IMG/VR virus record: IMGVR_UViG_3300048580_000535
Coordinates: 1-40,678 of that record
Length of the DNA: 40,678 nt
Source: a virus
Reading direction: 5' to 3' (one strand)
The notes under the pieces were generated by a model that saw only the letters and a list, made by a program, of their open reading frames with translations, had not been told where the DNA came from and searched no databases. A program made the position numbers and the translations under genes. Below, piece after piece: positions 1-25,020 of this stretch. How positions within the stretch are numbered: position 1 is the stretch's first letter; each line of letters opens with the position of its first letter.

Positions 1-126
1 GGATTACCTGTTATGACAAACTCAAACGCATTGTCAGGTAGAACTATGGGTGAATTTAATAAAAAATATCAAGGTAAGGCTGATTCAAAAATAGTTTCAG
101 AAATCATAAAAAAAGTTGTTGGGTAA
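1..126 (+). CDS. C-terminal end of a GatB/YqeY-like protein (partial)
   Basis: Only the last 41 residues are in the window; the gene starts upstream. The tail reads LPVMTNSNALSGRTMGEFNKKYQ and then GKADSKIVSEIIKKVVG. This fits the end of GatB/YqeY domains, where a 'GxxMGxxxKKxxGKADxKxVxxxxKxxL' pattern closes the last helical bundle. That domain contacts tRNA in GatB, and YqeY is a stand-alone relative of uncertain function. It reads in frame from base 1 to a TAA stop and is followed by a tRNA-like RNA about 45 bases downstream. The match rests on a short segment, so the family call is moderate and the full function cannot be judged. Confidence 0.5.
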   Translation, partial: GLPVMTNSNALSGRTMGEFNKKYQGKADSKIVSEIIKKVVG

Positions 127-170
127 TTTGACTTTAAAATAATAATAAACTATAATTAAAAAACAAAAAA

Positions 171-284
171 GGGGGAGAAATTCTTTTAGTGGTGTGAAAA
201 TAGCACTTAGAATAATCCTAAACAATACAGGTTAAAAATCTGATTAAAAATCAGACTAAATTGGTTCGAATCCAATCTCCCCCT
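171..284 (+). ncRNA. tRNA-like RNA with extra hairpins (aberrant tRNA or Y-RNA-like)
   Basis: A perfect 7-bp acceptor stem (GGGGGAG 171-177 with CTCCCCC 277-283) and a perfect T arm (ATTGG, TTCGAAT, CCAAT at 260-276) mark a tRNA-type fold. The span is 114 nt instead of about 75-90. Between the ends I can draw three hairpins: an ATTCT/AGAAT arm with an inner AGTG/CACT stem, a CCT/AGG arm extended by TAA/TTA, and a perfect TCTGA-TTAAAAA-TCAGA arm at 239-255. Read as a type II tRNA the last would be the variable arm; read as an anticodon arm it would give AAA. The sequence around 186-220 also resembles a Leu D arm followed by a possible UAA anticodon lacking U33. Identity is unresolved. It lies 31 bases upstream of the TROVE/DUF2828-like gene, which raises the alternative of a Y-RNA-type tRNA mimic. 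Confidence 0.55.
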
Positions 285-315
285 CAATTTATAACAATAT
301 TAAATATAAGTATAT

Positions 316-2145
316 ATGACAGAATTAGTAAAAGAAACAATGAAATTATCTAACACATTAGATACTTTGCAGTTTTTAAGAACGGCTAAGAATGCTTCAG
401 ATAAAGAAATTCATTCTACCCTTGATAAGGCCTATGCTGAAGTTTCTTTGAATGGAATTCAAGAAATGTTATTTAGACTTATGTTTCATATTGGAGATGT
501 GTCAAGAAAACATAATATTTTTAATGAATTTGATATTACATCTAATTCAGGTGGGGCTCAAGAAAGAAAGATATTCAGATCTTGTGTAAGATGGATGCAA
601 AAGAATACTCCGGAATTTTTACATTTAAATTTAAAGTTAATCGTTGAATTTACTTCATATGAAACTTTAATGTATTACCAAGTAAATACAAATAGATATT
701 TGGGTAATGTTATGAGTATTGAAAAATTATTCATAGATAATGAATATTTATTCCCATTCTTAAAATCTGAAATTGAATCAGGTGTAAACTTGAATTTAAT
801 TGCTAGACATTTACCTAAATATACTACAGGTAAACAAAGAACAACTAAGAAAGAATTAGTTGGTAAAAGGGGTAGAACCGAATTTACTTGGACATTACCA
901 AAAGGTAAGTCATGGGTTAAAATTAATGGAAAACTTGTAACTGGTGAAAAAATTAATGTGAAGGATGGTGATATTGCTGAATATCCAAGAGAAAAGAAAT
1001 CTGAAACTTTAACAAGACAATCATTTCTTAATAAATGGATTAAAGATTTCTGTGATTTCATGGGTTGGACTATTATCGATTACAAACAATTTAAGGGTAA
1101 GCAAAATACTGCTGAACAAAAAATGTCAAGTTTATCGGTAATGAACATGACTGAAGATGAATTTAATGGTTTCTTAGATTCTTTAACTTCTGGACAAAGA
1201 AAACGTGTTGTTAAATCTTTAATTAAACCTAAGTGGGGACATCTTTCAACGTGGTATAAGGCTTGGGAGGATGAACAATCTTCTTTAGCTGAAAAAATTA
1301 GAACAGCGTCAACTCCAGCTGAAAAAGCTGATTTGATGAAAGATTTTAAAGTTAAAACGACTGGTGATCAAACAATTGATTTGTTAGCGGAATTACTTGG
1401 AAAGGGTTTGAATGCTCAACAAGTAAACAACAACTACCAATCAATGATTGAAAGAATGAATATCAAACATTCAGTATTCCCAATTATTGATGGTTCTGGT
1501 TCAATGGATAGTAGTTTTACCCATAATGGAGTAAATATTACTAACAGACAAGTGGCATATGCAATGGCAATTGCATTTACTACTACAAATCCTAACCCAA
1601 GATTTAGAAATACTTATGGTTGGTTTTCAGAGGATTTTAAGGTTTTTGGTAGGTCTGAATTTGGTGATACTTATATTTCTATGTTTAAAAATGTAGATAA
1701 GTATGTAAGTTATACAAAAACATTTACTGAGAATTATAGATTACTTATGGAAACTGACCCTAAAGAAGTATCGTCAACAGATATGTTTGCTTCGGTTGAA
1801 TATTTTGTGGATTTAGTTAGAAATGGAAGATGTACTGTGGAAGAATTACCTGAAACGTTATTATATATCACGGATAATGAATATAATGAAGGTAAAACGC
1901 CAAAAGAAGCTGTTTCATTTGCTAATTCAATTGGGTGGAAACCTAAATTAATCTTTTGGGGTGTTACCACGATGAGTCATTCAATAAAAGAAGATTTGAA
2001 ATACACTCCAAATGGTTTATTCATTGGTGGATTCAACGAAAGTTGTTTATCACAAATCTTGGATGGAATCAATAAAGATTCAATAAATCCTGAAGATGAG
2101 TTATGGTCAATTTATAATGATATTCGTTATAGTATCATTAATTAA
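316..2145 (+). CDS. vWA-domain protein of TROVE/DUF2828 (Ro60-like) architecture
   Basis: 609 residues. The N-terminal part is helical; around residues 25-110 the stretch 'AYAEVSLNGIQEMLFRLMFHIGD ... GAQERKIFRSCVRWM' resembles the repeat region of DUF2828/TROVE proteins, where a 'llfyiRD..GG.GER' pattern is usual. The C-terminal part (about 385-600) is a von Willebrand A domain with an intact metal site: D392-G-S-G-S-M397, T488-D489 and 'LLYITDNE' with D520. Ro60, the type TROVE protein, is a ring that binds misfolded RNA and Y RNA; DUF2828 proteins share the layout but are less understood. RNA binding here is inferred from architecture and from the tRNA-like RNA just upstream. There is no SD; the start follows an AT-rich leader. 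The gene ends inside a strong terminator. Confidence 0.7.
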   Translation: MTELVKETMKLSNTLDTLQFLRTAKNASDKEIHSTLDKAYAEVSLNGIQEMLFRLMFHIGDVSRKHNIFNEFDITSNSGGAQERKIFRSCVRWMQKNTPEFLHLNLKLIVEFTSYETLMYYQVNTNRYLGNVMSIEKLFIDNEYLFPFLKSEIESGVNLNLIARHLPKYTTGKQRTTKKELVGKRGRTEFTWTLPKGKSWVKINGKLVTGEKINVKDGDIAEYPREKKSETLTRQSFLNKWIKDFCDFMGWTIIDYKQFKGKQNTAEQKMSSLSVMNMTEDEFNGFLDSLTSGQRKRVVKSLIKPKWGHLSTWYKAWEDEQSSLAEKIRTASTPAEKADLMKDFKVKTTGDQTIDLLAELLGKGLNAQQVNNNYQSMIERMNIKHSVFPIIDGSGSMDSSFTHNGVNITNRQVAYAMAIAFTTTNPNPRFRNTYGWFSEDFKVFGRSEFGDTYISMFKNVDKYVSYTKTFTENYRLLMETDPKEVSSTDMFASVEYFVDLVRNGRCTVEELPETLLYITDNEYNEGKTPKEAVSFANSIGWKPKLIFWGVTTMSHSIKEDLKYTPNGLFIGGFNESCLSQILDGINKDSINPEDELWSIYNDIRYSIIN

Positions 2146-2169
2146 AAAGTGGGGAAACCCACTTTTTTT
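2144..2169 (+). terminator. Rho-independent terminator after the vWA gene
   Basis: A 10-bp stem (AAAAAGTGGG with CCCACTTTTT), GAAA loop, then a T run. The stem begins inside the TAA stop codon of the vWA gene. The T/A symmetry means it could also end the small minus-strand gene that stops at 2168. Confidence 0.85.
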
Positions 2170-2359
2170 ATGCTGGTTTAACAATAAAACTTGATAAAAC
2201 AGGGGTTACTGTAAATTTAATACCATATTTGTTTTCAAATCTAATTCTAATTGTTTTAGGGTTAGATTTATTAGATACTATGACTTTACCTTCAGGGTAG
2301 TCAATATAGAATTGATTAGATTTTATTTCTTTAAGAATTTTTTTAATAATATTTTTCAT
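2168..2359 (-). CDS. Small basic protein, unknown (63 aa)
   Basis: The likely start is the ATG at 2357-2359, giving MKNIIKKILKEIKSNQFYIDYPEGK and ending ...TVTPVLSSFIVKPA. A longer reading frame to 2452 has a Cys-rich, AT-encoded extension and would overlap the next gene's start, so I prefer the shorter form. A motif ATATTTATT lies a few bases upstream of this ATG, as for several other genes here. The N-terminus MKNIIKKILKE is close to MRDLIKQILKEE of the gene at 10540. No domain is recognised. It fills the gap between two plus-strand genes and is convergent with the vWA gene. Confidence 0.5.
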   Translation of the reverse strand: MKNIIKKILKEIKSNQFYIDYPEGKVIVSNKSNPKTIRIRFENKYGIKFTVTPVLSSFIVKPA

Positions 2360-2419
2360 AACAATAAATATTTGTTTTAGTGAAAATAAAATACTATATT
2401 CGTATAAATTTAAATATAT

Positions 2420-3097
2420 ATGACAGATTTTAATAAATTCGCAACAAAACACATGGGTATTTCATCTATGTATCTTCACGATTTCCAATCGTCTATGACA
2501 CCTCACATTTTGGAGGAAAGACCAACAAGAGCAAATCTTATGTCGGTATTTGATAGATTGATGCAAGATAGGATTATTTGGTTGGCTGGTCCGGTTGATG
2601 AGGGTATGTGTCAAGTTATTCAAGCACAATTAATGTATTTAGCTAATACTGAACCTAAAAAAGAGATATCTCTTTTTTGTGACACCCCTGGTGGGAGTGT
2701 GAAATCGGGACTTTCAATCGTAGATGTTATGGATTATATTCCTTGCGATGTAAGAACTGTTAATACCGGTATGTGTGCATCTATGGGGTCAGTTATTTTA
2801 GGTGCTGGAACTAAGGGAAAAAGACAGTCGTTAAGGTTCTCAAGGACGATGCTACATCAAAGCTCTGGTGGGACTGGTAATGTAAACATTCAAGATGCTG
2901 AGATATCTATGAAAGAATGGAGAAAAATTAACGATATTTTATTTGAACTATTGGGTAGTTATTGTGGAAAAACCGCTAAACAGGTTAAAAAAGAATCTGA
3001 AAGGGACTTATGGTTAAATTCCGAAGAAACATTAGCTTATGGTTTAATTGATGAAATTATTAAACCGAAAGAAGTTAAAACTGAAGTAATTAAGTAA
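2420..3097 (+). CDS. ClpP-like serine protease (S14 family)
   Basis: 225 residues, close to the usual ClpP length. The triad is visible: S121 in GMCASMGSVILGAG, H146 in TMLHQSSGG, D196 in SERDLWLNSEE. The spacing (25 and 50) matches E. coli ClpP (25 and 49). Other ClpP signatures are 'IIWLAGPVDEGMCQVIQAQLMYL', 'SLFCDTPGGSV' and 'EETLAYGLIDEII'. ClpP forms a double-heptamer chamber that degrades unfolded proteins delivered by Clp ATPases. In phages such proteins either mature the prohead or act with host chaperones; with no capsid genes next to it, I cannot choose. No Clp ATPase is seen nearby. The start sits in a TTTAAATATATATGAC context nearly identical to that of the vWA gene. Confidence 0.9.
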   Translation: MTDFNKFATKHMGISSMYLHDFQSSMTPHILEERPTRANLMSVFDRLMQDRIIWLAGPVDEGMCQVIQAQLMYLANTEPKKEISLFCDTPGGSVKSGLSIVDVMDYIPCDVRTVNTGMCASMGSVILGAGTKGKRQSLRFSRTMLHQSSGGTGNVNIQDAEISMKEWRKINDILFELLGSYCGKTAKQVKKESERDLWLNSEETLAYGLIDEIIKPKEVKTEVIK

Positions 3098-3102
3098 TTT
3101 CA

Positions 3103-3996
3103 TTAACTTCTTCTATTAAAAATTGAATCCCATGAGGTCCAACCTTTATTTTTATAATAAATGTTTGGGTTTGATGGGATTTTTTCATTTATTTTTCTAA
3201 TATCCTTTCTTTTTTCGTTAAATTCATACCCACTTTTTATATTTAACGAATTAATGGTTTCTTTAAATTCATCATAAGTCATAAACTCTTTATTTTGGTT
3301 CGCAACTCTATTTGTCCCTAAGAAATCACCCCACCCTAACCAACCACGATTTTTATAATATCTTTCAGGTCTATTGGGTATATTGTCCGGTATACACCCT
3401 TTTTTCACTTGGGATTTATAATCAATTATATTATTCAAATTATACCCTCTAACAATTAATTTTGAATTGTCATAACTTAAATAATTAACATTATTATCAT
3501 AAGTATTATTTGTCTGTAAAAAATCAATCCAACTAACCCATCCGCGATTTTTATAAACCTCAACTGGGTTTCTAGATATATTGTCAGGTAAGATATTATT
3601 TTTTGTTTTTTCATACCAATCCGATTTCGATTTTATATTTAAATTTTTTTTAACCCATTTTTTTGTTTCTTCGTATGTTAAAGTATATATAATACCCGCA
3701 CCACCAATACCACCATTTGATGTATTTGTTAAATTTTCATGTTGGGATATCCAATATTTTTCTTTATCCTGCCAAACATTATTATCACATTCTTCTAATA
3801 TTGAATAACCTATATTAAAATTATTTTTAATAATCCAATTTTCTTTATGGGTGAGTTTTTTATTTATTTTAATATTACGTTTAACTTCTCTAATATGTCT
3901 AATTAATCTATCTTTGGGGTTGTCTGCCTTACCTATATACCTTATTTCTTCCGGATTATCGTTACAAAAAAGTCCGTATATAAATGTTGTTTTCAT
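3103..3996 (-). CDS. GIY-YIG homing endonuclease with three integrase-type repeats
   Basis: 297 residues. The first ~90 are a GIY-YIG nuclease: IYGLF (residues 6-10), RYIGKA about ten residues later, a conserved R in 'NPKDRLIRH', and an E in 'DKEKYWISQ'. From about 118 to the end there are three copies of a ~55-residue unit with the pattern 'N.P..YYKN(R/K)GW.(S/G)W.DFLGTN', which matches the phage-integrase repeat (INT_rpt) and is probably DNA-binding. The units are preceded by 'Y-(D)-E-x-K' helices. It is a free-standing mobile gene inserted convergently five bases after clpP. It may target a neighbouring phage locus; the target is not evident. Confidence 0.88.
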   Translation of the reverse strand: MKTTFIYGLFCNDNPEEIRYIGKADNPKDRLIRHIREVKRNIKINKKLTHKENWIIKNNFNIGYSILEECDNNVWQDKEKYWISQHENLTNTSNGGIGGAGIIYTLTYEETKKWVKKNLNIKSKSDWYEKTKNNILPDNISRNPVEVYKNRGWVSWIDFLQTNNTYDNNVNYLSYDNSKLIVRGYNLNNIIDYKSQVKKGCIPDNIPNRPERYYKNRGWLGWGDFLGTNRVANQNKEFMTYDEFKETINSLNIKSGYEFNEKRKDIRKINEKIPSNPNIYYKNKGWTSWDSIFNRRS

Positions 3997-4022
3997 ATTA
4001 TATTAATAGGTAGTTTTAAGAA

Positions 4023-4066
4023 AAAATCAAGTTATAATCTCGGTGGTTTAGTAATAACTTGATTTT
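4023..4066. repeat. 13-bp perfect inverted repeat between divergent genes
   Basis: AAAATCAAGTTAT (4023-4035) and ATAACTTGATTTT (4054-4066) are exact reverse complements around an 18-base centre. The site lies between the minus-strand GIY-YIG gene and the plus-strand gene at 4094, and its right arm contains the CTTG that serves as the -33 element of that gene's promoter. The position suits an operator. A hairpin in RNA is also possible, but no gene ends here, so termination is unlikely. Confidence 0.6.
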
Positions 4067-4089
4067 AAAAGTAAATTGGGTTATATTTG
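4059..4089 (+). promoter_or_regulatory. Bacteroidetes-type promoter, probably leaderless
   Basis: TTG at 4059-4061, a 20-base spacer, then TATATTTG at 4082-4089, an exact TAnnTTTG -7 box. The ATG at 4094 lies four bases downstream, so transcription would begin at or within the start codon. The -33 element overlaps the right arm of the inverted repeat. Confidence 0.65.
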
Positions 4090-4093
4090 TTTC

Positions 4094-4549
4094 ATGATAG
4101 ATATAAACTTAAAAATAATTACTGAATTATTATCCTCAATAGAACATTATGATACATTATCAAACTATTTCACTCAGTTGGACCCTAAACAATATGAAAA
4201 CTTAAATGAATATCATCTGATAATGTTAAAAAATTCTCGTGATGGTAAATATATTGATGAGCGTTATGTGAGGTATTGGAAAGATATTAACTTACATTTA
4301 ATTAAACAAATGTGGAGTAATACTTCTTGTGGGTATGAATCTATTGGTGGTTCAGCTTTTACTGCTTCATATACTACAATAATTGAAAATCATCATGGTG
4401 GTGCTATTTTTGTTTATTATAATGGTAAATTAGTTTATGTTGCTAAAATTAATGATAAATTAAAACCATTTAAAGACAACGAATATAGTGATTTACCTGG
4501 TATAAATTCAGCTAAAAAGAAATTAGATTTAATTTATTTTCTAAAATAA
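4094..4549 (+). CDS. Unknown protein (151 aa)
   Basis: I place the start at the ATG at 4094 (MIDINLKIITELLSS) rather than an upstream TTG at 4076, because the -7 promoter box lies between them. The protein is soluble-looking, with an N-terminal helical half (HYDTLSNYFTQLDPKQYENLNEY), a central 'DERYVRYWKDINLHLIKQMWSNTSCGYESIGG' and a C-terminal beta-rich half 'GGAIFVYYNGKLVYVAKIND'. No family recognised. It has its own promoter and a possible operator, which suggests early or separately controlled expression. Confidence 0.75.
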   Translation: MIDINLKIITELLSSIEHYDTLSNYFTQLDPKQYENLNEYHLIMLKNSRDGKYIDERYVRYWKDINLHLIKQMWSNTSCGYESIGGSAFTASYTTIIENHHGGAIFVYYNGKLVYVAKINDKLKPFKDNEYSDLPGINSAKKKLDLIYFLK

Positions 4550-4580
4550 TTTGTTTTTTAGAAAATTTTTATTACCTTTG
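4550..4580 (+). promoter_or_regulatory. Bacteroidetes-type promoter P1
   Basis: TTTG at 4550-4553, 19-base spacer, TACCTTTG at 4573-4580: both elements match the Bacteroidetes sigma-A consensus (TTTG, 19-21 bases, TAnnTTTG). It reads toward the small ORF at 4697 and the tRNA cluster. Confidence 0.7.
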
Positions 4581-4623
4581 TAGTGTTGAATAAGTATAAC
4601 CATTTTTAATAAAATAAAAAAGT

Positions 4624-4654
4624 TTTGATATTTTAAAAAAAAGTTGTATATTTG
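4624..4654 (+). promoter_or_regulatory. Bacteroidetes-type promoter P2
   Basis: TTTG at 4624-4627, 19-base spacer, TATATTTG at 4647-4654: again an exact consensus, 74 bases downstream of P1. The predicted start near 4661 leaves a leader of about 35 bases before the ATG at 4697. Confidence 0.75.
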
Positions 4655-4696
4655 TATCACAAAATAAAAAAACAGACTATTTAATATAAATAAGAA

Positions 4697-4831
4697 ATGA
4701 AAACATTAATTAACATAACATTAACACTTTTAAGTTTATCGCAATCGGTACTAAGCTATTGTAGTTCGGTATTACCGTTACACCAGTATTGGTTAGCGTT
4801 AGGATTTAGTGTGGGGAATATGTTAAGTTAA
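4697..4831 (+). CDS. Small secreted or membrane peptide (44 aa)
   Basis: Reads MKTLINITLTLLSLSQSVLS, then YCSSVLPLHQYWLALGFSVGNMLS. The N-terminus is a short positive start and a hydrophobic core, like a signal peptide or a single membrane anchor. It has two consensus promoters just upstream and a strong terminator just downstream, so it is a small independent transcription unit. The first 14 bases of coding sequence match those of the small gene at 25530. No known family; a lysis or superinfection role is possible but unsupported. Confidence 0.6.
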   Translation: MKTLINITLTLLSLSQSVLSYCSSVLPLHQYWLALGFSVGNMLS

Positions 4832-4852
4832 AGATTAAATATATTCTAATAG

Positions 4853-4896
4853 AAACCCTCTAAATCCAATTTAAACGTGATTTAGGGGGTTTTTTG
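4853..4896 (+). terminator. Strong rho-independent terminator
   Basis: A 14-bp stem (4853-4866 with 4879-4892, one G-T pair), 12-base loop, then a T-rich run. It ends the small-peptide unit and would separate it from the tRNA cluster, unless it is partly read through. Confidence 0.88.
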
Positions 4897-4926
4897 TTTT
4901 AGTTATTTGACGTATTGGTAAAATAT

Positions 4927-5001
4927 AAGGTGGTTTGGGAGCGGTCACCCAGCTACATTTGGATTGTAGAAAACTCGTGAGTTCGAATCTCACCCACCTT
5001 A
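4927..5001 (+). tRNA. tRNA-Pro (anticodon UGG)
   Basis: Acceptor AAGGTGG/CCACCTT, D arm TGGG/CCCA, anticodon arm CTACA-TTTGGAT-TGTAG with UGG, T arm GTGAG-TTCGAAT-CTCAC, discriminator A. All arms pair normally. First gene of the main cluster. Confidence 0.93.
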
Positions 5002-5064
5002 CAATATTTTTAGCTCAACTCAATCATTTAAGATTTTTGTAAGTATTTATATTAAAAGTTTAAT

Positions 5065-5919
5065 ATGAATGACAATTATAAAAAATTAGATAAATGTGTT
5101 AGTATGAGTGAAGCTCAAAGGGTGTTTGGGTTTCACGCTAATGGGGGTGGTGCTATAAAGATAAGAAAATTAGCGTTAGAATGTGGATTTGATTTAAATA
5201 TTTATAAATTACGTAAAAAAAAATATTGTTTAAATTGTAATAAACAATTACATCGTGGTCAATATAAATTTTGTTCTAATAGTTGTTCGGCAATTTTAAA
5301 TAATAAAAATAGAAATATAACAGATGAAACAAAAAATAAAATATCTAAAAAATTAAAACATTTTTTTACGTTAAAATATCCTGAAAATGTAATAACCCCG
5401 ACACATAAAGAATGTGTGATATGTAATAAATCTTTTAGTGTTGTTAAATGTAAAAGTGGGCGTTACTCTAGAAGTAAAACTTGCTCAAGTGAGTGTAATA
5501 TTGAACTAAGAAGAATGAATGGTAAGGATTCTATGGGTAAGGTTATAAAGGAAGGTAGACATATTGGATGGACAAGTCGAAATATTGTTAGTTACCCTGA
5601 AAAATTTTTTATGGGGGTTTTAGAAAAACATAATATAAAATATCAACATAATTATCCAATATTAAAGAGACATTTAGGTGTTGATGAACCTTATGGTTAT
5701 TTTTTAGATTTTTTTATTGAAGAAAAAAAAATTGATTTAGAGATAGATGGTAAACAACATTTTAGTAGGAAAGAACACGATAAAATAAGGGATGAAATTT
5801 TAAAAAATAATAATTTTAATGTATATAGGATTGATTGGAAAAATATTAACACTAAAAAAGGTAAAAAATATATGGAATTAGAGATTAGTAAATTTTTACA
5901 TTTTTATAATATGTGTTGA
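5065..5919 (+). CDS. EDxHD (Vsr-like) homing endonuclease with zinc motifs
   Basis: 284 residues. The N-terminal half has two zinc-binding-like motifs (CLNCNKQL...FCSNSC around 56-75, and CVICNKSF...CSSEC around 118-144). The C-terminal half is a PD-(D/E)XK/Vsr-type nuclease: SYPE with E179, 'GYFLDFFI' with D215, 'LEIDGKQHF' with E226, D228 and H232, and HDKIRDE with D239. This matches the EDxHD family, for which I-Bth0305I is the type. It lies within the tRNA cluster, and only 10 bases after its TGA stop comes an orphan 3' tRNA half. The likely reading is that it inserted into, and destroyed, a tRNA gene. Its codons are very A-rich even for this phage. Confidence 0.85.
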   Translation: MNDNYKKLDKCVSMSEAQRVFGFHANGGGAIKIRKLALECGFDLNIYKLRKKKYCLNCNKQLHRGQYKFCSNSCSAILNNKNRNITDETKNKISKKLKHFFTLKYPENVITPTHKECVICNKSFSVVKCKSGRYSRSKTCSSECNIELRRMNGKDSMGKVIKEGRHIGWTSRNIVSYPEKFFMGVLEKHNIKYQHNYPILKRHLGVDEPYGYFLDFFIEEKKIDLEIDGKQHFSRKEHDKIRDEILKNNNFNVYRIDWKNINTKKGKKYMELEISKFLHFYNMC

Positions 5920-5929
5920 TAAAGAGGTT

Positions 5930-5956
5930 GTAAGTTCGAGTCTTACCATCCTGACA
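5930..5956 (+). pseudogene. Orphan 3' half of a tRNA
   Basis: A perfect T arm (GTAAG 5930-5934, TTCGAGT, CTTAC 5942-5946) is followed by an acceptor 3' strand CATCCTG, A, and CA. The matching CAGGATG is not found upstream at a usual distance, where the endonuclease gene lies, nor in the 60 bases before that gene. It appears to be a tRNA remnant truncated by the endonuclease insertion. A weak alternative uses TAGGATT at 5824 inside the gene, which would make an implausible 130-nt RNA. Confidence 0.65.
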
Positions 5957-5963
5957 ATTAAAC

Positions 5964-6035
5964 TTTCGGGTCGTCTAATGGGAGGATAAGGTGCTTTGAA
6001 CACCTTGATGATTGGTTCGAATCCATCCCCGAAAA
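5964..6035 (+). tRNA. tRNA-Gln (anticodon UUG)
   Basis: Acceptor TTTCGGG/CCCGAAA, anticodon arm AGGTG-CTTTGAA-CACCT with UUG. The D stem uses G-T pairs and the T stem has a bulged base (GAT-TGG with CCA-TC), so the fold is slightly degraded. Confidence 0.85.
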
Positions 6036-6086
6036 CAGGTTTGGGTTTTACACTTTTAAACTTACAAGATAAGGAAAAAGTGAATT

Positions 6087-6160
6087 TGGGACGATGCCCG
6101 GGGTAGGTCAGACGGTCTGTAAAACCGAACTGCATAGTGATCGTGACACTTCCGTCCCAC
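6087..6160 (+). tRNA. tRNA-Tyr (anticodon GUA), divergent
   Basis: Acceptor TGGGACG/CGTCCCA, anticodon arm CGGT-CTGTAAA-ACCG with GUA. The T loop is not the usual TTCGA form: the best stem is AGTG-ATCGTGA-CACT with one extra base before the acceptor. The anticodon arm is clear, the rest is unusual, so the gene may be decayed or the T arm remodelled. Confidence 0.65.
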
Positions 6161-6173
6161 GACAAAAAAAAAT

Positions 6174-6244
6174 GTAGATGACAGGCTTGGTGTCGGTGGG
6201 ATCTCCAAAATCTTCACGAGTTGTTTCGATTACAACCATCTATG
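6174..6244 (+). tRNA. tRNA-Trp (anticodon CCA)
   Basis: Acceptor GTAGATG/CATCTAT (first pair G-T), anticodon arm GGGAT-CTCCAAA-ATCTT with CCA, T arm GTTGT-TTCGATT-ACAAC, discriminator G. It has a short variable loop, as expected for Trp. Confidence 0.85.
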
Positions 6245-6251
6245 CCAATAT

Positions 6252-6346
6252 ATAAGTGTGGGGGAATGGTTTAACCCAAGAGTCTCCAAAGCTCTGATCG
6301 GCGATAACTTCAAGATTGATTACAGGTTCGAATCCTGTCACTTATG
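6252..6346 (+). tRNA. Type II tRNA with CCA anticodon (identity unclear)
   Basis: Acceptor ATAAGTG/CACTTAT, D arm GGGG/CCCA, anticodon arm AGAGT-CTCCAAA-GCTCT, T arm ACAGG-TTCGAAT-CCTGT, discriminator G. All stems pair. The loop sequence equals that of the Trp tRNA just upstream, giving CCA, but a ~26-nt variable arm (GATC...GATT) marks it as type II, a class normally limited to Leu, Ser and Tyr. Either a Trp tRNA with an expanded variable loop or a Ser/Leu-type tRNA with a changed anticodon. Confidence 0.75.
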
Positions 6347-6353
6347 CAAATAT

Positions 6354-6435
6354 GGATGGCGTCCGAATGGACGAGGACACCGCCTTGAAAGCGGCTGGCT
6401 GTAATGGCTTGGGGGTTCGATTCCCTCGTCATCCG
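6354..6435 (+). tRNA. tRNA-Ser (anticodon UGA)
   Basis: Acceptor GGATGGC/GTCATCC, anticodon arm CCGC-CTTGAAA-GCGG with UGA, long variable arm, T arm GGGGG-TTCGATT-CCCTC, discriminator G, as expected for Ser. Confidence 0.9.
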
Positions 6436-6441
6436 CAAAAT

Positions 6442-6577
6442 GGTTCTATAACAGATTAATCTGTGAAATTGGGTGAATGATGATTTAATGATTTAACACT
6501 ACAAATACTAGTTGGTAGTTAAAGGTTATGGATTAAATACGTAATTTACATTATTGGTTCGATTCCAATTAGAACTA
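6442..6577 (+). ncRNA. Oversized tRNA-like RNA (136 nt)
   Basis: Acceptor GGTTCTA (6442-6448) pairs with TAGAACT (6570-6576) and a perfect T arm ATTGG-TTCGATT-CCAAT lies at 6553-6569, but the middle is about 50 nt too long. It can fold as ACAGA-TTAA-TCTGT, then a 9-bp arm TTTA-(AC)-ACTAC/GTAGTTAAA with a 12-base loop, then an ATG/CAT plus TAAAT/ATTTA arm. No convincing anticodon loop with U33 is visible. Its T arm is nearly identical to that of the tRNA-like RNA at 171-284, which also has three interior hairpins. It may be an inserted or decayed tRNA, or a distinct RNA class. Confidence 0.5.
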
Positions 6578-6584
6578 CTAAAAA

Positions 6585-6615
6585 TTTGTTATTTGAAATA
6601 ATTTTATTATCTTTA
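6585..6615 (+). promoter_or_regulatory. Near-consensus Bacteroidetes promoter
   Basis: TTTG at 6585-6588, 19-base spacer, TATCTTTA at 6608-6615 (one mismatch from TAnnTTTG). It would drive the small gene at 6663 and the downstream tRNAs. Confidence 0.5.
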
Positions 6616-6638
6616 TATTATGAAAAAAGAAAAAGACT

Positions 6639-6661
6639 TCCTTTAGATTAATCTAAAAGGA
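6639..6661 (+). repeat. Inverted repeat just before the small gene at 6663
   Basis: CCTTTAGATT and AATCTAAAAGG form a near-perfect palindrome that ends two bases before the ATG. The start codon would be next to the hairpin in the mRNA, or the DNA site could bind a protein, possibly the basic product itself. Confidence 0.5.
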
Positions 6662-6662
6662 T

Positions 6663-6884
6663 ATGTCAAAAAACAGAAACAGAGCTAAACTGAATAAAGC
6701 ACAGAATGGTAGGGAATACCATCAAATAGGTATGAATGAAGTTTATCCTATGTATTGGGATGAAGGAATAATATATTACCCTATATATAGAAGAGGATTT
6801 AAAAATCCAAACAAAGTATTACAACGTTATAAACAGAGAGAATTTAGGAGTTGGAAATATAACAGAAAAACACAATGGAAGTAA
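6663..6884 (+). CDS. Small very basic protein in the tRNA cluster (73 aa)
   Basis: Reads MSKNRNRAKLNKAQNGREYHQ, then an aromatic centre (VYPMYWDEGIIYYPIYRR) and a basic end (QRYKQREFRSWKYNRKTQWK). High Lys/Arg/Asn suggests nucleic-acid binding, but no family is recognised. It sits between two tRNA groups with its own likely promoter and a palindrome at the start. Its codon use is ordinary for the window. Confidence 0.65.
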   Translation: MSKNRNRAKLNKAQNGREYHQIGMNEVYPMYWDEGIIYYPIYRRGFKNPNKVLQRYKQREFRSWKYNRKTQWK

Positions 6885-6967
6885 TGGTTTTAAAATCCTA
6901 AGAGTTTCCTCATCATAATAACTCTGGATAAAATCCTCTAACAGGAAATTGGGATAGGTATAACACG

Positions 6968-7041
6968 GTGTCTATGTTGTCAATGGTTGAGCATCTATGC
7001 TTGTGGCGCATAAGGTTTGGGTTCGAATCCCAATAGACACA
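6968..7041 (+). tRNA. tRNA-His (anticodon GUG)
   Basis: Acceptor GTGTCTA/TAGACAC with a G immediately 5' (possible G-1), anticodon arm TATGC-TTGTGGC-GCATA with GUG, T arm TTGGG-TTCGAAT-CCCAA. The discriminator is A rather than the usual bacterial C. Confidence 0.9.
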
Positions 7042-7060
7042 CAAAAAAGTAAGGAATTAG

Positions 7061-7091
7061 GTTATTATATGTAGGCTCCGAATATAATAAC
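7061..7091 (+). repeat. 10-bp perfect hairpin between tRNA-His and tRNA-Ser
   Basis: GTTATTATAT (7061-7070) and ATATAATAAC (7082-7091) around an 11-base loop. It is not followed by a T run, so it is not a standard terminator. Confidence 0.7.
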
Positions 7092-7125
7092 TAAAATTTA
7101 GACCCTTATGAATTTCGGTCCGAAA

Positions 7126-7210
7126 GGAGAGTTGACAGAGTGGTAATGTATCGGATTGCTAATCCGTAGTCTATGTAACAGTAGCGGGGGCTCGAATCCC
7201 TCACTCTCCG
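7126..7210 (+). tRNA. tRNA-Ser (anticodon GCU)
   Basis: Acceptor GGAGAGT/ACTCTCC, anticodon arm CGGA-TTGCTAA-TCCG with GCU, long variable arm, T arm GGGGG-CTCGAAT-CCCTC, discriminator G. The next bases are CCA, so this gene appears to encode its 3' CCA, unlike its neighbours. Confidence 0.92.
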
Positions 7211-7222
7211 CCAAAAATATAT

Positions 7223-7311
7223 ACTTCTGTGGCGAAATTGGTAGAACGCGACAGACTTAAAATCTGTTGGGAAATAATAGTACCGTGTCGGTTCGAGTCC
7301 GACCAGAAGTA
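7223..7311 (+). tRNA. tRNA-Leu (anticodon UAA)
   Basis: Acceptor ACTTCTG/CAGAAGT, Leu-type D arm (TGGCGAAATTGGTAGA), anticodon arm ACAGA-CTTAAAA-TCTGT with UAA, long variable arm, T arm GTCGG-TTCGAGT-CCGAC, discriminator A. Fully canonical. Confidence 0.95.
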
Positions 7312-7364
7312 CACCAGACTGTTATTAATTCATAGAAACGTGTTGTTTGCATAGAATTAAAAAT

Positions 7365-7445
7365 ACCCTAATGGCGAAATGGGAGCCGCGCTATCTTTAG
7401 AAGTTAGTGTCGAAAGACGTGTAGGTTCGAGTCCTACTTGGGGTA
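7365..7445 (+). tRNA. tRNA-Leu (anticodon UAG)
   Basis: Acceptor ACCCTAA/TTGGGGT, anticodon arm CTATC-TTTAGAA-GTTAG with UAG (one mismatch in the stem), variable arm GTC-GAAA-GAC, T arm GTAGG-TTCGAGT-CCTAC, discriminator A. Confidence 0.92.
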
Positions 7446-7544
7446 CAAATGAGTGACAAGACGTTTCAGAGATGGTTGACAGGCATTTTTGGATGCTAAT
7501 AAACATTTTTTAACATGAAGTACAAGTGTTAAATAGCTCAATAC

Positions 7545-7627
7545 GCTCTAATGATGGAATGGGAGACATGAGGGTTTAAGAAGCCCTTGTTAGGAATAAC
7601 GTGTAGGTTCGAGTCCTACTTAGAGTA
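7545..7627 (+). tRNA. tRNA-Leu (anticodon AAG)
   Basis: Acceptor GCTCTAA/TTAGAGT, anticodon arm AGGGT-TTAAGAA-GCCCT with AAG, variable arm GTTA-GGAA-TAAC, T arm identical to that of tRNA-Leu(UAG). The 3' parts of the two Leu genes are very similar, so they probably arose by duplication. The A at position 34 is unusual for a bacterial Leu tRNA. Confidence 0.88.
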
Positions 7628-7653
7628 CAAATAAGAAGTAAAAGACATTAACT

Positions 7654-7729
7654 GGGAATGTGGTGTGAGTGGTTGAAACCGATGATTCGCAAAGTCATTT
7701 TATCGTCAGTTCGAATCTGACCATTCCCT
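7654..7729 (+). tRNA. tRNA-Cys (anticodon GCA)
   Basis: Acceptor GGGAATG/CATTCCC, D stem GGT/ACC, anticodon arm ATGAT-TCGCAAA-GTCAT with GCA, T arm GTCAG-TTCGAAT-CTGAC. The discriminator is T (U73), a Cys identity element. Position 33 is C instead of the near-universal U. Confidence 0.85.
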
Positions 7730-7738
7730 CAATTACAT

Positions 7739-7811
7739 AGCCCCATAGTTCAACGGAGTAGAATACTTGACTACGGATCAGGAGATGAGAGTTCGAATCT
7801 TTCTGGGGTTA
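7739..7811 (+). tRNA. tRNA-Arg (anticodon ACG)
   Basis: Acceptor AGCCCCA/TGGGGTT, D arm GTTC/GAAT, anticodon arm CTTGA-CTACGGA-TCAGG with ACG, T arm GAGAG-TTCGAAT-CTTTC, discriminator A. The ACG anticodon needs conversion to inosine by TadA to read the full CGN family. Last gene of the cluster. Confidence 0.93.
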
Positions 7812-7818
7812 CAAAAAG

Positions 7819-7844
7819 AAAACCATTTTTATATGGTTTTTTTT
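7819..7844 (+). terminator. Terminator closing the tRNA cluster
   Basis: Stem AAAACCAT/ATGGTTTT, 6-base loop, T run, eight bases after tRNA-Arg. Confidence 0.85.
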
Positions 7845-7867
7845 ATGCCATTACATATTTATTAGAT

Positions 7868-10543
7868 ATGATTATTATTGAAGGAAAATTAGAGGATTTA
7901 TCTAAAAAATATATACCACAATTTAATAGGGATGCGTTTACTGAAGGATTAACCCCTGAATCTGTCATTGAACATTTATATGTGTCAGATCCGTCACCCA
8001 CAAAGAAATATTTTGAGTGGATGATTAAAGAGTGTTTGGGACTTATAAAAAACAATTACATTATTAACAATGAAAAAGTTGCTCGAATTGTTATGGACAT
8101 CATAGAGTTTGATAGGAATATTGATAAACTTAGTGAAGATTTTTTAGAGTATAATGAAGAAGAAATTGGTGAAATCACTTATAAATTTTTAAAGGATAAA
8201 CCTTTAAAAGATATTAACACTTATAATTTTGATATTTTAAGAAAAATAATACCAACATTAATAAAACATAAAACTGAAAGTCAAAGAAGGGTTTTGGCTA
8301 AAGAAGGTGCTAAACTTGTATACCAAAACGATAAGTATAAAGTGTATGAAATAGATACCTATGACGCATCTTGTTTTTATGGTTCAGGAAGTAAATGGTG
8401 TACAACTAATAAGTCAAGTGACAATCATTTTAGATCATACGGAACTGGTGATAAAAAATTATTATACGTTATCAGTAAAACTAAGACAAAAGAAACTGAT
8501 CCACGATTCTATAAGATTGCTATAAATGTGAGGTATGGTGAGGAATACATTACATTTTGGGACGCTCCTGATGACTCTTTTAATGGTTGGAATTATTTTA
8601 GGGGACAAGATCCGAATATTTTAACTTTTTTGATTGACTATATTAAAGAAAAGTCACCTGAAAACTATTTTAAAATGATACCTGATGAATACATTTACAT
8701 ACTTAAACAAGAAAGTGAAGGGTTAAGTGACATTGAAATGATGTTATTAATAGATATACATAGAAATAGTAGGTGGTTATCGTATAAATATAATACTTCA
8801 ATGGAAAAAGCTTTTATTAAAAAATTAGATTTATTGCAAGGTAATGTTAATGGTTATTTTGGTGATTATTTTAGTGATGATGAGAAAAGATATTTCCTTA
8901 ATAATATTGATGATATTTTAACCCCTAGGGGTTTAACATGGAAAGATTTTTATAAAACCTACCACGAAATGGCTATTAGTTTGGATAACTACCCACCTAG
9001 TGTTTTTATTGATAAATTTTTAGATGGTGATAAGAACAAATTATTGGTTGGTGGTCGTAATGATTTAACAATAGCCTATTGGGTTGCTAAGGGTGGTAAT
9101 GCGTTAAGGGATTTAGGTGTTGTATATGGAGCTGAAAGATTATTAAAATACTTTATTAAGAATAAGATTAATAGTGGTTATGGTTTAACAAGGCTTTTAG
9201 GAGGTACATTATCTAATGAGACTCCGAAAAAAAGAAGAGAGTTATATGAAATTGTCTATAAGTATGAAAAGGGTTGGGATATTAGTGACTTACCTGAATA
9301 TTTATTTAGAAATTTACCAAGAGAAACATTTATAGCTTCATTTAATAATAGTGATGATCGTGAAATTGAACCTGATTCATATAGGAGAGCGTTTTTATAC
9401 CTTAAAAATAACAGTCCTAATTTAATTAGTGATGTATTTGGTGTGGAAGATATTGTTAAGATATTTAAAACAGAAGAAAAGTCTTTTACTTATTTTTTAA
9501 AGAATTACGATGAGTTTAGTGGTAATGATTTAAATATTAGTAATTTAACTGAAATGTTTGTTGTTGAAGTTCCTGATAGTATATTTGGTAGGTATATGAG
9601 TACTTGGGAAAAAACTCGTGTTATTACTAAGTATAAAACAAAAGAAGGTGCTAAAAAACTATTTGATTTTGTTCTTAAAAAATTTTCATTTAAGAAATTG
9701 GCTGATATTGTTGGATATGATGAAGTATTTCAATTATTCTCTATTGTTGGTTTTAAAAAGGGTATAAACTATATGATTGAAAATAAAATTGGTGACATTA
9801 GAATTGACGATATTAAGATTGTGAACGGCGAACCAATATTAATGGTTGTAAATAGGGAAGATTATGCGTTTTTATTTAAAGATAATAACATGGCTAATTC
9901 TATTTTATCAGGTGAAATGGATTGGGAACCGTATAGTGATGTTGTATATAATTGGATTAATCAAGTATGGGATTGCGTTGAACCTAAATCTATGGAAGTT
10001 ATTAAAGCTTGGATTAAGGAAAATATTGTTGATTATGAAAATTTTCTCGGTGAAACCATTGAAGTAAATGACACATATTTGAATGAAATTTCAGATGATG
10101 AGTTGGGTGATATAATAGATGATAATGGTTATTTTGAAGATTTGAAAAATGAAATGACGTGGGCTTATGAACAGGGTTATAATAATGGGGTTCGAAATAA
10201 ATTGTATGAAAATGTTACTGATCAACTTGAAACATATTTAGGTAAATATATTGGTTATGAACCATATATTATTAAGAAAAAATTTTATAATAAAGAAAAA
10301 GGTGGAATCGATTCTAAAGAAGAAACTGAATATCGTTATCTTTTTAAGGTAGGTGGTGATTTTTATGAAACATTATACAATTATTCTTTAAGTAATTGGG
10401 GTTATCCAGTAGATTATAATACGTATTTTAGCACCCTATTAAGTGATTTGGATCTTGATAAGTTATATATTGAAACTGAAGTATATCCAGATGATAAAGA
10501 AGTTTGTGAATATTTTAATGAAGATTTACCTGGTAGAATATGA
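7868..10543 (+). CDS. Large KWC-domain protein, unknown function
   Basis: 891 residues. A conserved module spans about 150-250: 'KLVYQNDKYKVYEIDTYDAS', the signature G172-S-G-S-K-W-C178, then 'LLYVISKTK...FYKIAINV...ITFWDAPDDS'. The same order (Y.D..Y.V, T.EA, YG.GSKWC, hydrophobic strand, KxxIQ, WD..D) recurs in the proteins at 10540 and 25698. The rest is acidic and helical, with many short repeats of Leu/Lys/Asp-rich helices ('LSDLPEYLFRNLP', 'KKLADIVGYDEVFQLF'), and ends in an acidic tail. There are no membrane segments. It forms a unit with the next gene (ATGA overlap). The motif ATATTTATT sits five bases before the ATG. I do not recognise a function. Confidence 0.8.
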   Translation: MIIIEGKLEDLSKKYIPQFNRDAFTEGLTPESVIEHLYVSDPSPTKKYFEWMIKECLGLIKNNYIINNEKVARIVMDIIEFDRNIDKLSEDFLEYNEEEIGEITYKFLKDKPLKDINTYNFDILRKIIPTLIKHKTESQRRVLAKEGAKLVYQNDKYKVYEIDTYDASCFYGSGSKWCTTNKSSDNHFRSYGTGDKKLLYVISKTKTKETDPRFYKIAINVRYGEEYITFWDAPDDSFNGWNYFRGQDPNILTFLIDYIKEKSPENYFKMIPDEYIYILKQESEGLSDIEMMLLIDIHRNSRWLSYKYNTSMEKAFIKKLDLLQGNVNGYFGDYFSDDEKRYFLNNIDDILTPRGLTWKDFYKTYHEMAISLDNYPPSVFIDKFLDGDKNKLLVGGRNDLTIAYWVAKGGNALRDLGVVYGAERLLKYFIKNKINSGYGLTRLLGGTLSNETPKKRRELYEIVYKYEKGWDISDLPEYLFRNLPRETFIASFNNSDDREIEPDSYRRAFLYLKNNSPNLISDVFGVEDIVKIFKTEEKSFTYFLKNYDEFSGNDLNISNLTEMFVVEVPDSIFGRYMSTWEKTRVITKYKTKEGAKKLFDFVLKKFSFKKLADIVGYDEVFQLFSIVGFKKGINYMIENKIGDIRIDDIKIVNGEPILMVVNREDYAFLFKDNNMANSILSGEMDWEPYSDVVYNWINQVWDCVEPKSMEVIKAWIKENIVDYENFLGETIEVNDTYLNEISDDELGDIIDDNGYFEDLKNEMTWAYEQGYNNGVRNKLYENVTDQLETYLGKYIGYEPYIIKKKFYNKEKGGIDSKEETEYRYLFKVGGDFYETLYNYSLSNWGYPVDYNTYFSTLLSDLDLDKLYIETEVYPDDKEVCEYFNEDLPGRI

Positions 10544-23129: not shown

Positions 23130-23164
23130 TCGAGCTTTTTTGTTAAACCATCATATTTATATTT

Positions 23165-24010
23165 ATGGATGGTTTAACAAAAAATATACCTTATGTATAT
23201 ATCATTAAAAATAAGAGTACTGGTTTGAAATATATCGGTGCTAAATATTCTAAAAATTCTAACCCAAATAATTTTTGGGTTAATTATTTTACATCATCAA
23301 AACTAATCCATAAATTAATTGAGTTTTATGGTGTTAATGATTTTGAATTTAAAATAATAAAAACATTTAATAGTGTGTTTGATACATTACAATATGAACG
23401 TAAATTAATATCTTTATCATTATTAAAAGATGATTATTTAAATCTACATTCTAATTTTGTTGTTGAATCGGAAGAAGAATATGAGTTTAACCAAATTAAA
23501 ATGAAAAAAGTTAGAAGTTTTTATGGTAATTTATCGTATTTAATGAAATTAGGTTTTCACGGTTTTACTGATGAGATTAGATATAAAGTTTGTAGTGATG
23601 GTGGTAAAATGGCTGCGATTGTAAATAAATTAAATAAAAAGGGTCTTTTTAATAAGGAAAATATTACTAATATACATAAAAAATTAAAAGAAAAACAATT
23701 GAGTGCGTATTACGATCCATCATTACGATTTGATATATGTAGTAAGGGTGGTAAGAATGGGTTTTTTAGTGATAATTATAGGGTGAAAAATAACTTAACT
23801 GAGGACGAAATGAGGGGGAGACAAAGTGATAGGGGTAAAAAAGGTGGTGTTAAGAATAAGGGATTTAAATGGTATAATGATGGTGTAAATGTCTACAAAT
23901 ACATGCCAGAACAAATAAAAGAACTTCCATTTGATGAATTTTTAAAACAAAATAATCAATTTAAAAGAGGTCCTGGAAAACTCTTAAAGAGTATAAAATT
24001 AAAAAAATAA
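23165..24010 (+). CDS. Free-standing GIY-YIG homing endonuclease between split-intein halves
   Basis: 281 residues. GIY-YIG signature 'VYIIKNKSTGLKYIGAKYSKN' (about 12-33), a conserved E in 'LQYERKLISL'. The C-terminus 'RGKKGGVKNKGFKWYNDGVNVYKYMPEQI' is the type of DNA-binding tail seen in homing nucleases. It has its own start, with ATATTTATATTT directly before the ATG, and its stop lies 11 bases before the C half of the intein. It probably spreads the intein by cutting intein-free nrdJ. Not related to the GIY-YIG gene at 3103 beyond the nuclease core. Confidence 0.88.
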   Translation: MDGLTKNIPYVYIIKNKSTGLKYIGAKYSKNSNPNNFWVNYFTSSKLIHKLIEFYGVNDFEFKIIKTFNSVFDTLQYERKLISLSLLKDDYLNLHSNFVVESEEEYEFNQIKMKKVRSFYGNLSYLMKLGFHGFTDEIRYKVCSDGGKMAAIVNKLNKKGLFNKENITNIHKKLKEKQLSAYYDPSLRFDICSKGGKNGFFSDNYRVKNNLTEDEMRGRQSDRGKKGGVKNKGFKWYNDGVNVYKYMPEQIKELPFDEFLKQNNQFKRGPGKLLKSIKLKK

Positions 24011-24021
24011 AGAATAAAAAA

Positions 24022-25020
24022 ATGAAAATTAAAAAAATAAGAAAGACTGATGAATATTTCCAAACAGGTGATTTGGAGGTTAAAGATACCCATTCATATC
24101 AATTAGATAATGGGGTTGTTTCACATAATTCTGTACTATTAAAATCACCTTCTGGTTGTCACGGAGACCATGCTCCAAGATACTTTAGGGTAATGCAAAT
24201 TAATAAACAATCTGAAATTGGTAAGTATTTGAATGAAGAACATTCGTATTTGATTGAAGAATCTGTATGGAGTTCTAATAAAACAGATTATGTGGCATAT
24301 ATTCCGGTAATGGCTAATAAGAATGCTAAATTTAAAAAAGATTTAGTTGGTATGAATCAATTAGAAGTGGTTAAAACAATTCAAAACAATTGGGTTGAAT
24401 ATGGGACAAATCACGAAAGAAATGTTCAACCATATTTAAGACATTCAGTTTCTAATACTGTTGAATTGGATTATTCTGATTACGATATGGTAGAAGATTA
24501 TTTATTTAATAATAGATATGATTTCGCGGCGGTATCATTCTTACCTTTAACAGGTGATAAAGATTTCAACCAAGCACCATTCACGTCAGTATTGTCAGGT
24601 GAAGAATTATACGATAAGTATGATGATGCAGCTTTCTTCGCTTCAGGTTTAATTGTTGATGGGTTACATGCTTTCGATGGTAACTTATGGGAAGCTTGTG
24701 ATTATGTAAATAAAAGAGATTTGAAATTACAAGGAACAAGGGTTGAAGGTTTAATTAAGAAAGATTGGATTAGAAGAGCTAAACAATTCGCTAAGAGATT
24801 CTTTAAGGGGGATATTAAAGAAATGATATTATGTCTTAAAGATTTACATTTATATCACAAATGGGTTAGAATAAATCGTGAATTAAAACAAAGGGATTTT
24901 GATTTTAATACGGCAATTAAACAACCCGAATATGTTAATATGGATACTATGGGAGCTCAAGCCTGTGCTGCGGGTAGTTGTGAATTACCTGAGTATATGT
25001 TAGAAGCTATGAAAGGATAA
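24022..25020 (+). CDS. nrdJ: NrdJ C part with C half of split intein
   Basis: 332 residues. Residues 1-36 (MKIKKIRKTDEYFQTGDLEV...GVVSHN) are the intein C half, ending in HN, followed by S37. Trans-splicing with the 23126 half joins PSGNA to SVLLKSPSGCHGDHAPRYF, the phosphate-binding 'PSGNAS.L..SSG.H' motif of class II RNR. The C-terminus carries 'QACAAGSCELPEYM', a C-x4-C pair like the C731/C736 redox pair of RTPR, which re-reduces the active site. So this gene is inactive alone; the complete enzyme needs both polypeptides to join. Confidence 0.93.
   Translation: MKIKKIRKTDEYFQTGDLEVKDTHSYQLDNGVVSHNSVLLKSPSGCHGDHAPRYFRVMQINKQSEIGKYLNEEHSYLIEESVWSSNKTDYVAYIPVMANKNAKFKKDLVGMNQLEVVKTIQNNWVEYGTNHERNVQPYLRHSVSNTVELDYSDYDMVEDYLFNNRYDFAAVSFLPLTGDKDFNQAPFTSVLSGEELYDKYDDAAFFASGLIVDGLHAFDGNLWEACDYVNKRDLKLQGTRVEGLIKKDWIRRAKQFAKRFFKGDIKEMILCLKDLHLYHKWVRINRELKQRDFDFNTAIKQPEYVNMDTMGAQACAAGSCELPEYMLEAMKG

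Follow-up and report, generated by a model that had tools for sequence, protein, structure and literature searches.

The described systems closest to the locus reported here are the bacterial Y RNAs and the Ro60-type proteins that they accompany. Y RNAs gate Ro60/Rsr and tether Ro60/Rsr to PNPase, as set out in portions of PMC4726728 and PMC8394870; sections of the latter also describe YrlA as a tRNA mimic tethering PNPase and as an RNA whose 5' and 3' ends pair to form the stem bound by the Ro60 protein, and a section of PMC11472068 describes the tRNA part of YrlA as circularly permuted. Mentions of Ro60-type proteins of phages, and of phage YrlA, exist in print in parts of PMC7824862 and PMC7765460. 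The function of Ro60 and Y RNAs in bacteria and phages remains poorly known, and a phage that carries both parts in one unit, with ordinary tRNA ends on the RNA, would be a compact test of Y RNA tRNA mimicry. We analyzed a 40,678-base IMG/VR virus record, the whole of which is referred to below as the window, in which a tRNA-shaped RNA adjoins a Ro60-like gene. As in the case of YrlA and Rsr, the window RNA has D-, T-, and acceptor-like arms, lies beside a gene for a predicted Ro60-fold protein, and is likely a tethering or gating partner; the difference is that its ends make an acceptor stem as in tRNA and are unpermuted, and among the open PMC papers searched we found no account of a partner RNA whose tRNA ends are unpermuted, or of the window RNA itself.

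The window RNA is 114 nt long (171-284, plus strand), with a tRNA-like outline and unpermuted ends, and consists of the following elements.

171-177 with 277-283, plus strand: acceptor stem, GGGGGAG paired with CTCCCCC, 7 of 7 pairs
Between the acceptor 5' strand and the D-arm-like element: linker AAATTC
184-200, plus strand: D-arm-like element TTTT-AGTGGTGTG-AAAA, near-invariant across 4 relatives
201-238, plus strand: 38-nt insert of ambiguous fold, with conserved CACTTAGAATAA and CTAAA
239-255, plus strand: anticodon-arm-like hairpin TCTGA-TTAAAAA-TCAGA, 5 bp with a 7-nt loop
Between hairpin 239-255 and the T arm: variable region of 4 nt
260-276, plus strand: T arm ATTGG-TTCGAAT-CCAAT, stem 5 of 5 pairs, loop TTCGAAT
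284, plus strand: discriminator position, T in the window

The original prediction, made from the letters of the window, had described an RNA of this length with a perfect acceptor stem and T arm, and this description stands: both stems are fully paired, and the minimum free energy of -33.4 kcal/mol compares with a mean of -18.6 kcal/mol for shuffled sequences (z -5.4), with none of 200 shuffles equaling it. The middle of the RNA has two competing folds, neither of them with convincing covariation. In the first, 184-200 forms a D arm and a further arm, TACCA/TGGTA, is added around TTAG/CTAA; one pair is altered on both sides (C-G to G-U), which 123 of 500 shuffles match. In the second, 184-200 belongs to a long hairpin (180-213) in which AGTG/CACT runs on into ATTCT/AGAAT; ViennaRNA favors this fold by ∼5-12 kcal/mol, no pair is altered on both sides, and one pair is lost in the window. 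The inner sequence (TTTTAGTGG..TGAAAATA.CACTTAGAATAA) hardly changes among the four RNAs known from the window and its relatives.

The gene that follows the RNA encodes a protein with the following features.

316-2145, plus strand: Ro60-like (TROVE-vWA) protein, 609 aa, a remote relative of phage DUF2828 proteins
841-987 (residues 176-224), plus strand: beta-rich insert, missing from the phage DUF2828 profile
1465-2082, plus strand: vWA domain with the metal-site motif DGSGS (residues 392-396), fold match to residues 384-589

No curated Pfam cut-off was reached by this protein, the best match being vWA_Ro60 (18.1 bits against a cut-off of 27.7), and residues 1-383 had no DUF2828 match in Pfam; the Ro60 type therefore rests on the PHROG match, on HHalign, and on the fold. 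Single-sequence matches were confined to the vWA half, including that in PHROGs to phrog_850 ('RNA-binding protein', E 1.8e-13). When a profile of the window lineage was compared by HHalign with one of 11 phage DUF2828/Ro-like proteins, both halves aligned (residues 30-608 against 46-481; probability 99, E 9.5e-18), and the alignment took in the N-terminal GGAQERKIFR and LPKY. Further, Asp-392, Ser-394, Ser-396, Thr-488, and Asp-520, which we take to be the metal-site residues of the vWA domain, are invariant in an alignment of 47 sequences, composed of 43 from the 80 IMG/VR DUF2828 loci described below and the four of the window lineage. An AF2 model built from this alignment was of moderate confidence (pLDDT 67.4, pTM 0.60) and superseded one from 4 sequences that was too poor (pLDDT 46.9); it is not independent of the homologues, since DUF2828 homologues are in its alignment. 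Used as a query in Foldseek, the model returned Ro60 at all of ranks 1-9 (E 4.6e-6 to 6.7e-3), and the top ten rows of VIA-align were all Ro60/TROVE (Z 13.8 to 11.3), including the Ro60 of Thermus phage phiLo, with 384 residues aligned at 4.7 Å in the best case; sequence searches of the PDB with the protein gave nothing relevant. The beta-rich insert has high local pLDDT, is specific to the lineage, and has no Pfam match; it could be an added RNA-binding domain. Thus, the vWA protein of Ro60-type layout that was originally proposed is supported by profile comparison and by modeled fold, with Pfam itself below its cut-off. The phage DUF2828/Ro-like proteins of phrog_850 are full-length homologues of the window protein, and noncoding RNAs adjoin their genes too; the window differs in the length of its protein (609 aa), in the extra beta domain, in the scores below the Pfam cut-off, and in an RNA that lacks the ACAGCAA hairpin.

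With the protein as a query, 2.9 million viral contigs yielded three relatives, 85-86% identical, and the same RNA was present at the same place relative to the gene in 3/3 of these IMG/VR contigs (loci L001-L003), as one would look for from the pairing that had been proposed; the RNA thus adjoins the Ro60-like gene in 4/4 known genomes. Further scans of viral contigs by protein or by RNA returned these three contigs again, or in one case none of them, one scan of genome contigs found no relative of this protein lineage, and BLAST of the RNA against the phage collection gave chance-level matches only (E 0.7). L022 was considered as an extra relative and rejected, as tblastn found no relative there. 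We built a covariance model, R1, from two of the relatives, with the acceptor, anticodon-like, and T helices as its only helices. R1 recovered the third relative (118 bits) and the window RNA (81.6 bits, E 3e-16); the next-best score in 17 sources was 20.8 bits, and in 13 phage loci the best match (20.7 bits, E 0.055) overlapped an ordinary tRNA. With 80 other DUF2828 loci, R1 gave nothing convincing, the best match outside the lineage scoring 25.6 bits (E 0.019). According to R1, each genome has a single copy of the RNA (10 of 11 pieces of the three relatives); the eleventh piece, L045 (9 kb of G003), had no match in a shape-descriptor scan, and a shape search of the four records on both strands (231,724 bases) returned exactly these four RNAs.

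The 17 core pairs of the acceptor, anticodon-like, and T helices were paired in 68/68 cells across the four sequences. Seven of the 17 were altered on both sides, namely 2 of 7 in the acceptor stem, with pairing kept in all relatives, 1 in the anticodon-like hairpin, and 4 of 5 in the T stem, a level equaled by 1 of 500 shuffles in a set of only four sequences, two of them nearly identical, whose alignment was fitted to the same structure. Because the sequences are few and related, independent covariation events are few. The adjacency of RNA and gene might likewise reflect shared descent, because there are only four RNAs and the proteins are 85-86% identical. We note that L001 and L002 have a tRNA-Gly gene as the upstream neighbor, and L003 and the window a protein gene; the neighbor changes and the pair persists, and the linkage of RNA and gene therefore outlasts altered surroundings. 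That the RNA is a decaying tRNA gene caught in an intergenic spacer is hardly credible, given compensatory changes in three helices and a near-invariant inner sequence, even if tRNA models fail on it.

The original prediction had pointed to YrlA as the model for this RNA, and in this respect it was not borne out. The YrlA covariance model (RF02553) had no match at 171-284, its best score in the window being 8.3 bits at 4977-4993, and the YrlA topology was rejected, as the two ends of the RNA pair with each other in a 7-bp acceptor stem that is continuous with the T arm. The phage ACAGCAA hairpin was rejected for the window RNA as well, with no CAGC in any of the four RNAs; ACAGCAA occurs once in the 40.7 kb of the window, at 18004, against a chance mean of 2.4. 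We found no Ro60-site motif common to the window RNA and either YrlA or the ACAGCAA hairpins.

Relatives of a DUF2828 protein from a Campylobacter phage occur in 682 of 50,697 phage records. RNAs beside other phage DUF2828 genes were examined in 13 of these phage loci and in 80 IMG/VR loci, the latter being the best-scoring 80 of 582 confirmed. Hairpins of the ACAGCAA type lay on the strand of the gene in 53/80 IMG/VR loci and on the opposite strand in 19/80. YrlA matches, below the gathering score, were found in Enterococcus phage EfV12 and Mycobacterium phage Appletree2. Tandem ACAGCAA hairpins were seen near DUF2828 in L024, L025, L026, L028, L032, L033, and L011 and resemble a family of phage Y RNAs; Rfam searches of these seven loci named YrlA-like cases only, in two of the loci and below gathering. 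As a separate observation, 462-1013 of L026 (Listeria phage P100plus), near DUF2828, matches the ROOL RNA at 86 bits (cut-off 99.1), and an RtcB-type ligase is annotated downstream of the DUF2828 gene of this phage.

A shape search for unpermuted tRNA bodies of 98-150 nt in 97 loci (695,922 bases) found at least eight on the strand of the gene and none on the opposite strand, and ten shuffles of each of the 97 loci contained none of this shape. These counts are lower bounds because the descriptor is strict, recovering 2 of the 10 ordinary window tRNAs at ordinary length and missing the second RNA of Cronobacter phage LPCS28; its final form was set with knowledge of the window RNA and widened to include it, the first form having missed it. 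A candidate in L115 (5190-5298) was found with a looser D-loop rule and lost under the stricter one. The eight bodies are the four of the window lineage and those of Synechococcus phage B23, Cronobacter phage LPCS28, and the IMG/VR loci L091 and L099. Outside the window lineage, unpermuted bodies lie at the following positions.

L034 3880-4000 and 4010-4122: tandem unpermuted tRNA bodies of LPCS28, downstream of the DUF2828 gene
L029 3869-3978, L091 2358-2485, and L099 2224-2336: each a long unpermuted tRNA body in the vicinity of a DUF2828 gene

In these four phages, the acceptor, D, and T arms are complete and the insert lies in the anticodon region, where a hairpin is followed by TTCAGCA (LPCS28, twice), TTACAGC (L099), or AACTGCA (B23); the insert of L091 is ATGCAGCA, with a less clear hairpin. 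Both LPCS28 bodies, the second of which was found by Rfam, are followed by an encoded CCA and have the anticodon loop swapped for 52-55 nt with the common hairpin GCAAACTGAYAAGTTTGT and ATTCAGCA, and the B23 body is annotated as a tRNA of undetermined type. By eye, L034 ∼4130-4275 resembles a permuted, YrlA-type relative. The window RNA has the outline architecture in common with the bodies of these four phages; the D arms of those bodies are clearly of the tRNA type, and most of them have a hairpin and then a CAGC-like motif where the anticodon loop would be, whereas the window RNA lacks the CAGC-like motif, is AT-rich with no obvious sequence likeness to them, and has an extra hairpin of 5 bp with a 7-nt loop before the T arm.

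The RNA and the gene are bracketed by a promoter and a terminator in 4/4 genomes. In the window, these elements are as follows.

128-156, plus strand: sigma-70-type promoter TTGACT-17-TATAAT, 11 of 12 consensus positions, upstream of the RNA
2144-2169, plus strand: intrinsic terminator AAAAAGTGGG-GAAA-CCCACTTTTTTT, hairpin and T run after the stop codon

The promoter is the top promoter-like site within 1-8000, in a scan in which such sites were overall no commoner than in shuffles, and its hexamers and spacing are identical in L001-L003. The terminator was identified by eye and is absent from the list of the terminator scan; L001-L003 have a hairpin at the matching place with a different stem sequence. 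The RNA ends at 284 and the ATG is at 316, which confirms the 31-base gap noted at the outset, and no terminator-like element lies between the two. This arrangement also fits the strongest rival to a separate partner RNA, namely a cis-acting leader, in which the Ro60 mRNA would carry a tRNA-like operator in its 5' leader, used by the protein, or by a host tRNA-binding factor, to control expression of the protein, with no separate RNA being made: the promoter is common to both, the gap is short, and nothing terminates transcription in between. On the other hand, the acceptor and T stems covary as a whole tRNA top half, and RNAs linked to DUF2828 genes elsewhere lie either upstream or downstream of the gene; a trans-acting RNA therefore fits better, and we consider the leader unlikely.

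We also weighed whether the RNA is in fact a charged tRNA whose D/anticodon region is unusual, either type II Leu-like or intron-bearing. Its acceptor and T arms are shared with tRNA and perfectly paired, a D-loop-like AGTGG is present, and the 5-bp hairpin with its 7-nt loop has T at the U33 position. With an intron allowed, ARAGORN called tRNA-Leu(TAG) in L003 only. Lowering the score cut to 60% gave calls in all four: the RNAs of the window, L001, and L003 were then read as Leu(TAG) with a 15-17-nt intron, and that of L002 as Val(TAC). A TAG triplet is conserved when the RNA is read in the alternative fold. Default ARAGORN, however, made no call at the RNA in 4/4 genomes, and the Rfam tRNA model (cut-off 29) scored 18.7 bits in the window and 23.6 bits in G003, with neither G001 nor G002 matched at the RNA, so that a confident tRNA call, which would have spoken against a Y-RNA-like partner, is absent from all four. 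Further, the triplet in the anticodon-like loop is AAA in the window and AAT in the three relatives, and the discriminator base is T in the window and G in the three relatives. tRNA-Leu requires A at base 73. An ordinary tRNA-Leu(TAG) exists in all four genomes. The 3' CCA is unencoded in the window RNA, as it is in all but 1 of the 10 window tRNAs. tRNA-Sec was the top Rfam match in the stretch and was rejected at 23.6 bits, half of its cut-off of 47; the window RNA has the long cloverleaf in common with tRNA-Sec and type II tRNAs and differs from them in having neither a consistent anticodon nor a consistent discriminator. The earlier remark that no clean anticodon is evident needs qualifying in that an anticodon-arm-like hairpin, with a triplet that varies between relatives, does exist at 239-255. 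Overall, we conclude that the RNA is tRNA-shaped and yet probably not used as a tRNA, and regard a charged tRNA as improbable.

We also considered a decoy tRNA that acts independently of the protein, for example against a host anticodon nuclease, and owes its position to a common early promoter. The phages are rich in tRNAs (by ARAGORN, 10 in the window and 18-27 in the flanks of the relatives), and a nuclease-decoy role has been suggested for the tRNA domain of YrlA in a portion of PMC7790460. The tight and conserved pairing with a Ro60-type gene under a common terminator speaks against such independence, as do the linked RNAs that other DUF2828 genes carry of their own, and we give this explanation a low probability.

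The presence of a conserved tRNA-shaped RNA and a Ro60-type gene in one small transcription unit suggests that the RNA is a built-in partner of the protein. We therefore favor, with reasonable though far from complete confidence, a two-part phage Ro60 ribonucleoprotein in which the Y-RNA-like partner is an unpermuted tRNA mimic that would bind the protein. The best reading is that the unit works like a Ro60-Y RNA pair without the RNA being a YrlA member. The Y-RNA-like, non-tRNA partner of the original prediction thus survives as regards the linkage in 4/4 genomes, the single promoter and terminator, and the want of a confident tRNA call, and has to be amended in that the RNA is not YrlA and is without the ACAGCAA hairpin.

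In the mechanism that we propose, transcription from a single promoter would yield first an RNA that has ordinary tRNA ends and is enlarged in its D/anticodon region, and then the mRNA of the Ro60-fold ring. The RNA would then be the resident partner of the ring protein and do the job of a Y RNA, presumably sitting on the exterior of the ring and gating the entry of other RNAs into the ring hole. Its tRNA-like surface may make it a substrate for trimming and modification by tRNA enzymes, and may tether a nuclease, in the way that YrlA/DrY tether PNPase, or direct the ring toward damaged tRNAs in the course of infection. The unit may thereby serve in the handling of cut or misfolded tRNAs; RtcB and RNA_ligase (PF09414) genes were not found in the four contigs, all of which are fragments.

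More tentatively, the window RNA and the long bodies of the other phages might together make up an unpermuted class of Y RNA, having the ends of an ordinary tRNA and a Ro60-binding element in place of the anticodon or D region, that arose in several unrelated phage groups beside Ro60-type genes. The window RNA would be the most divergent member, maturation would be tRNA-like, the ring would sit at the anticodon end, and YrlA would be the permuted form; we hold this wider proposal to be possible rather than probable. If unpermuted forms are real, they would link YrlA to tRNAs via a simple permutation and would suggest that phage Ro60 rings manage or guard tRNAs, perhaps against host tRNA-cutting enzymes.

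Elsewhere in the window, the closest match of the baseplate protein is its counterpart in Flavobacterium phage immuto (27% identity). The ribonucleotide reductase gene (20358-25020) appears by eye to contain one full intein and one split intein, with a separate ORF (23165-24010) sitting between the halves of the split intein. Further, a tRNA-Trp call at 6252-6347 is 96 nt long, which is unusually long for Trp.
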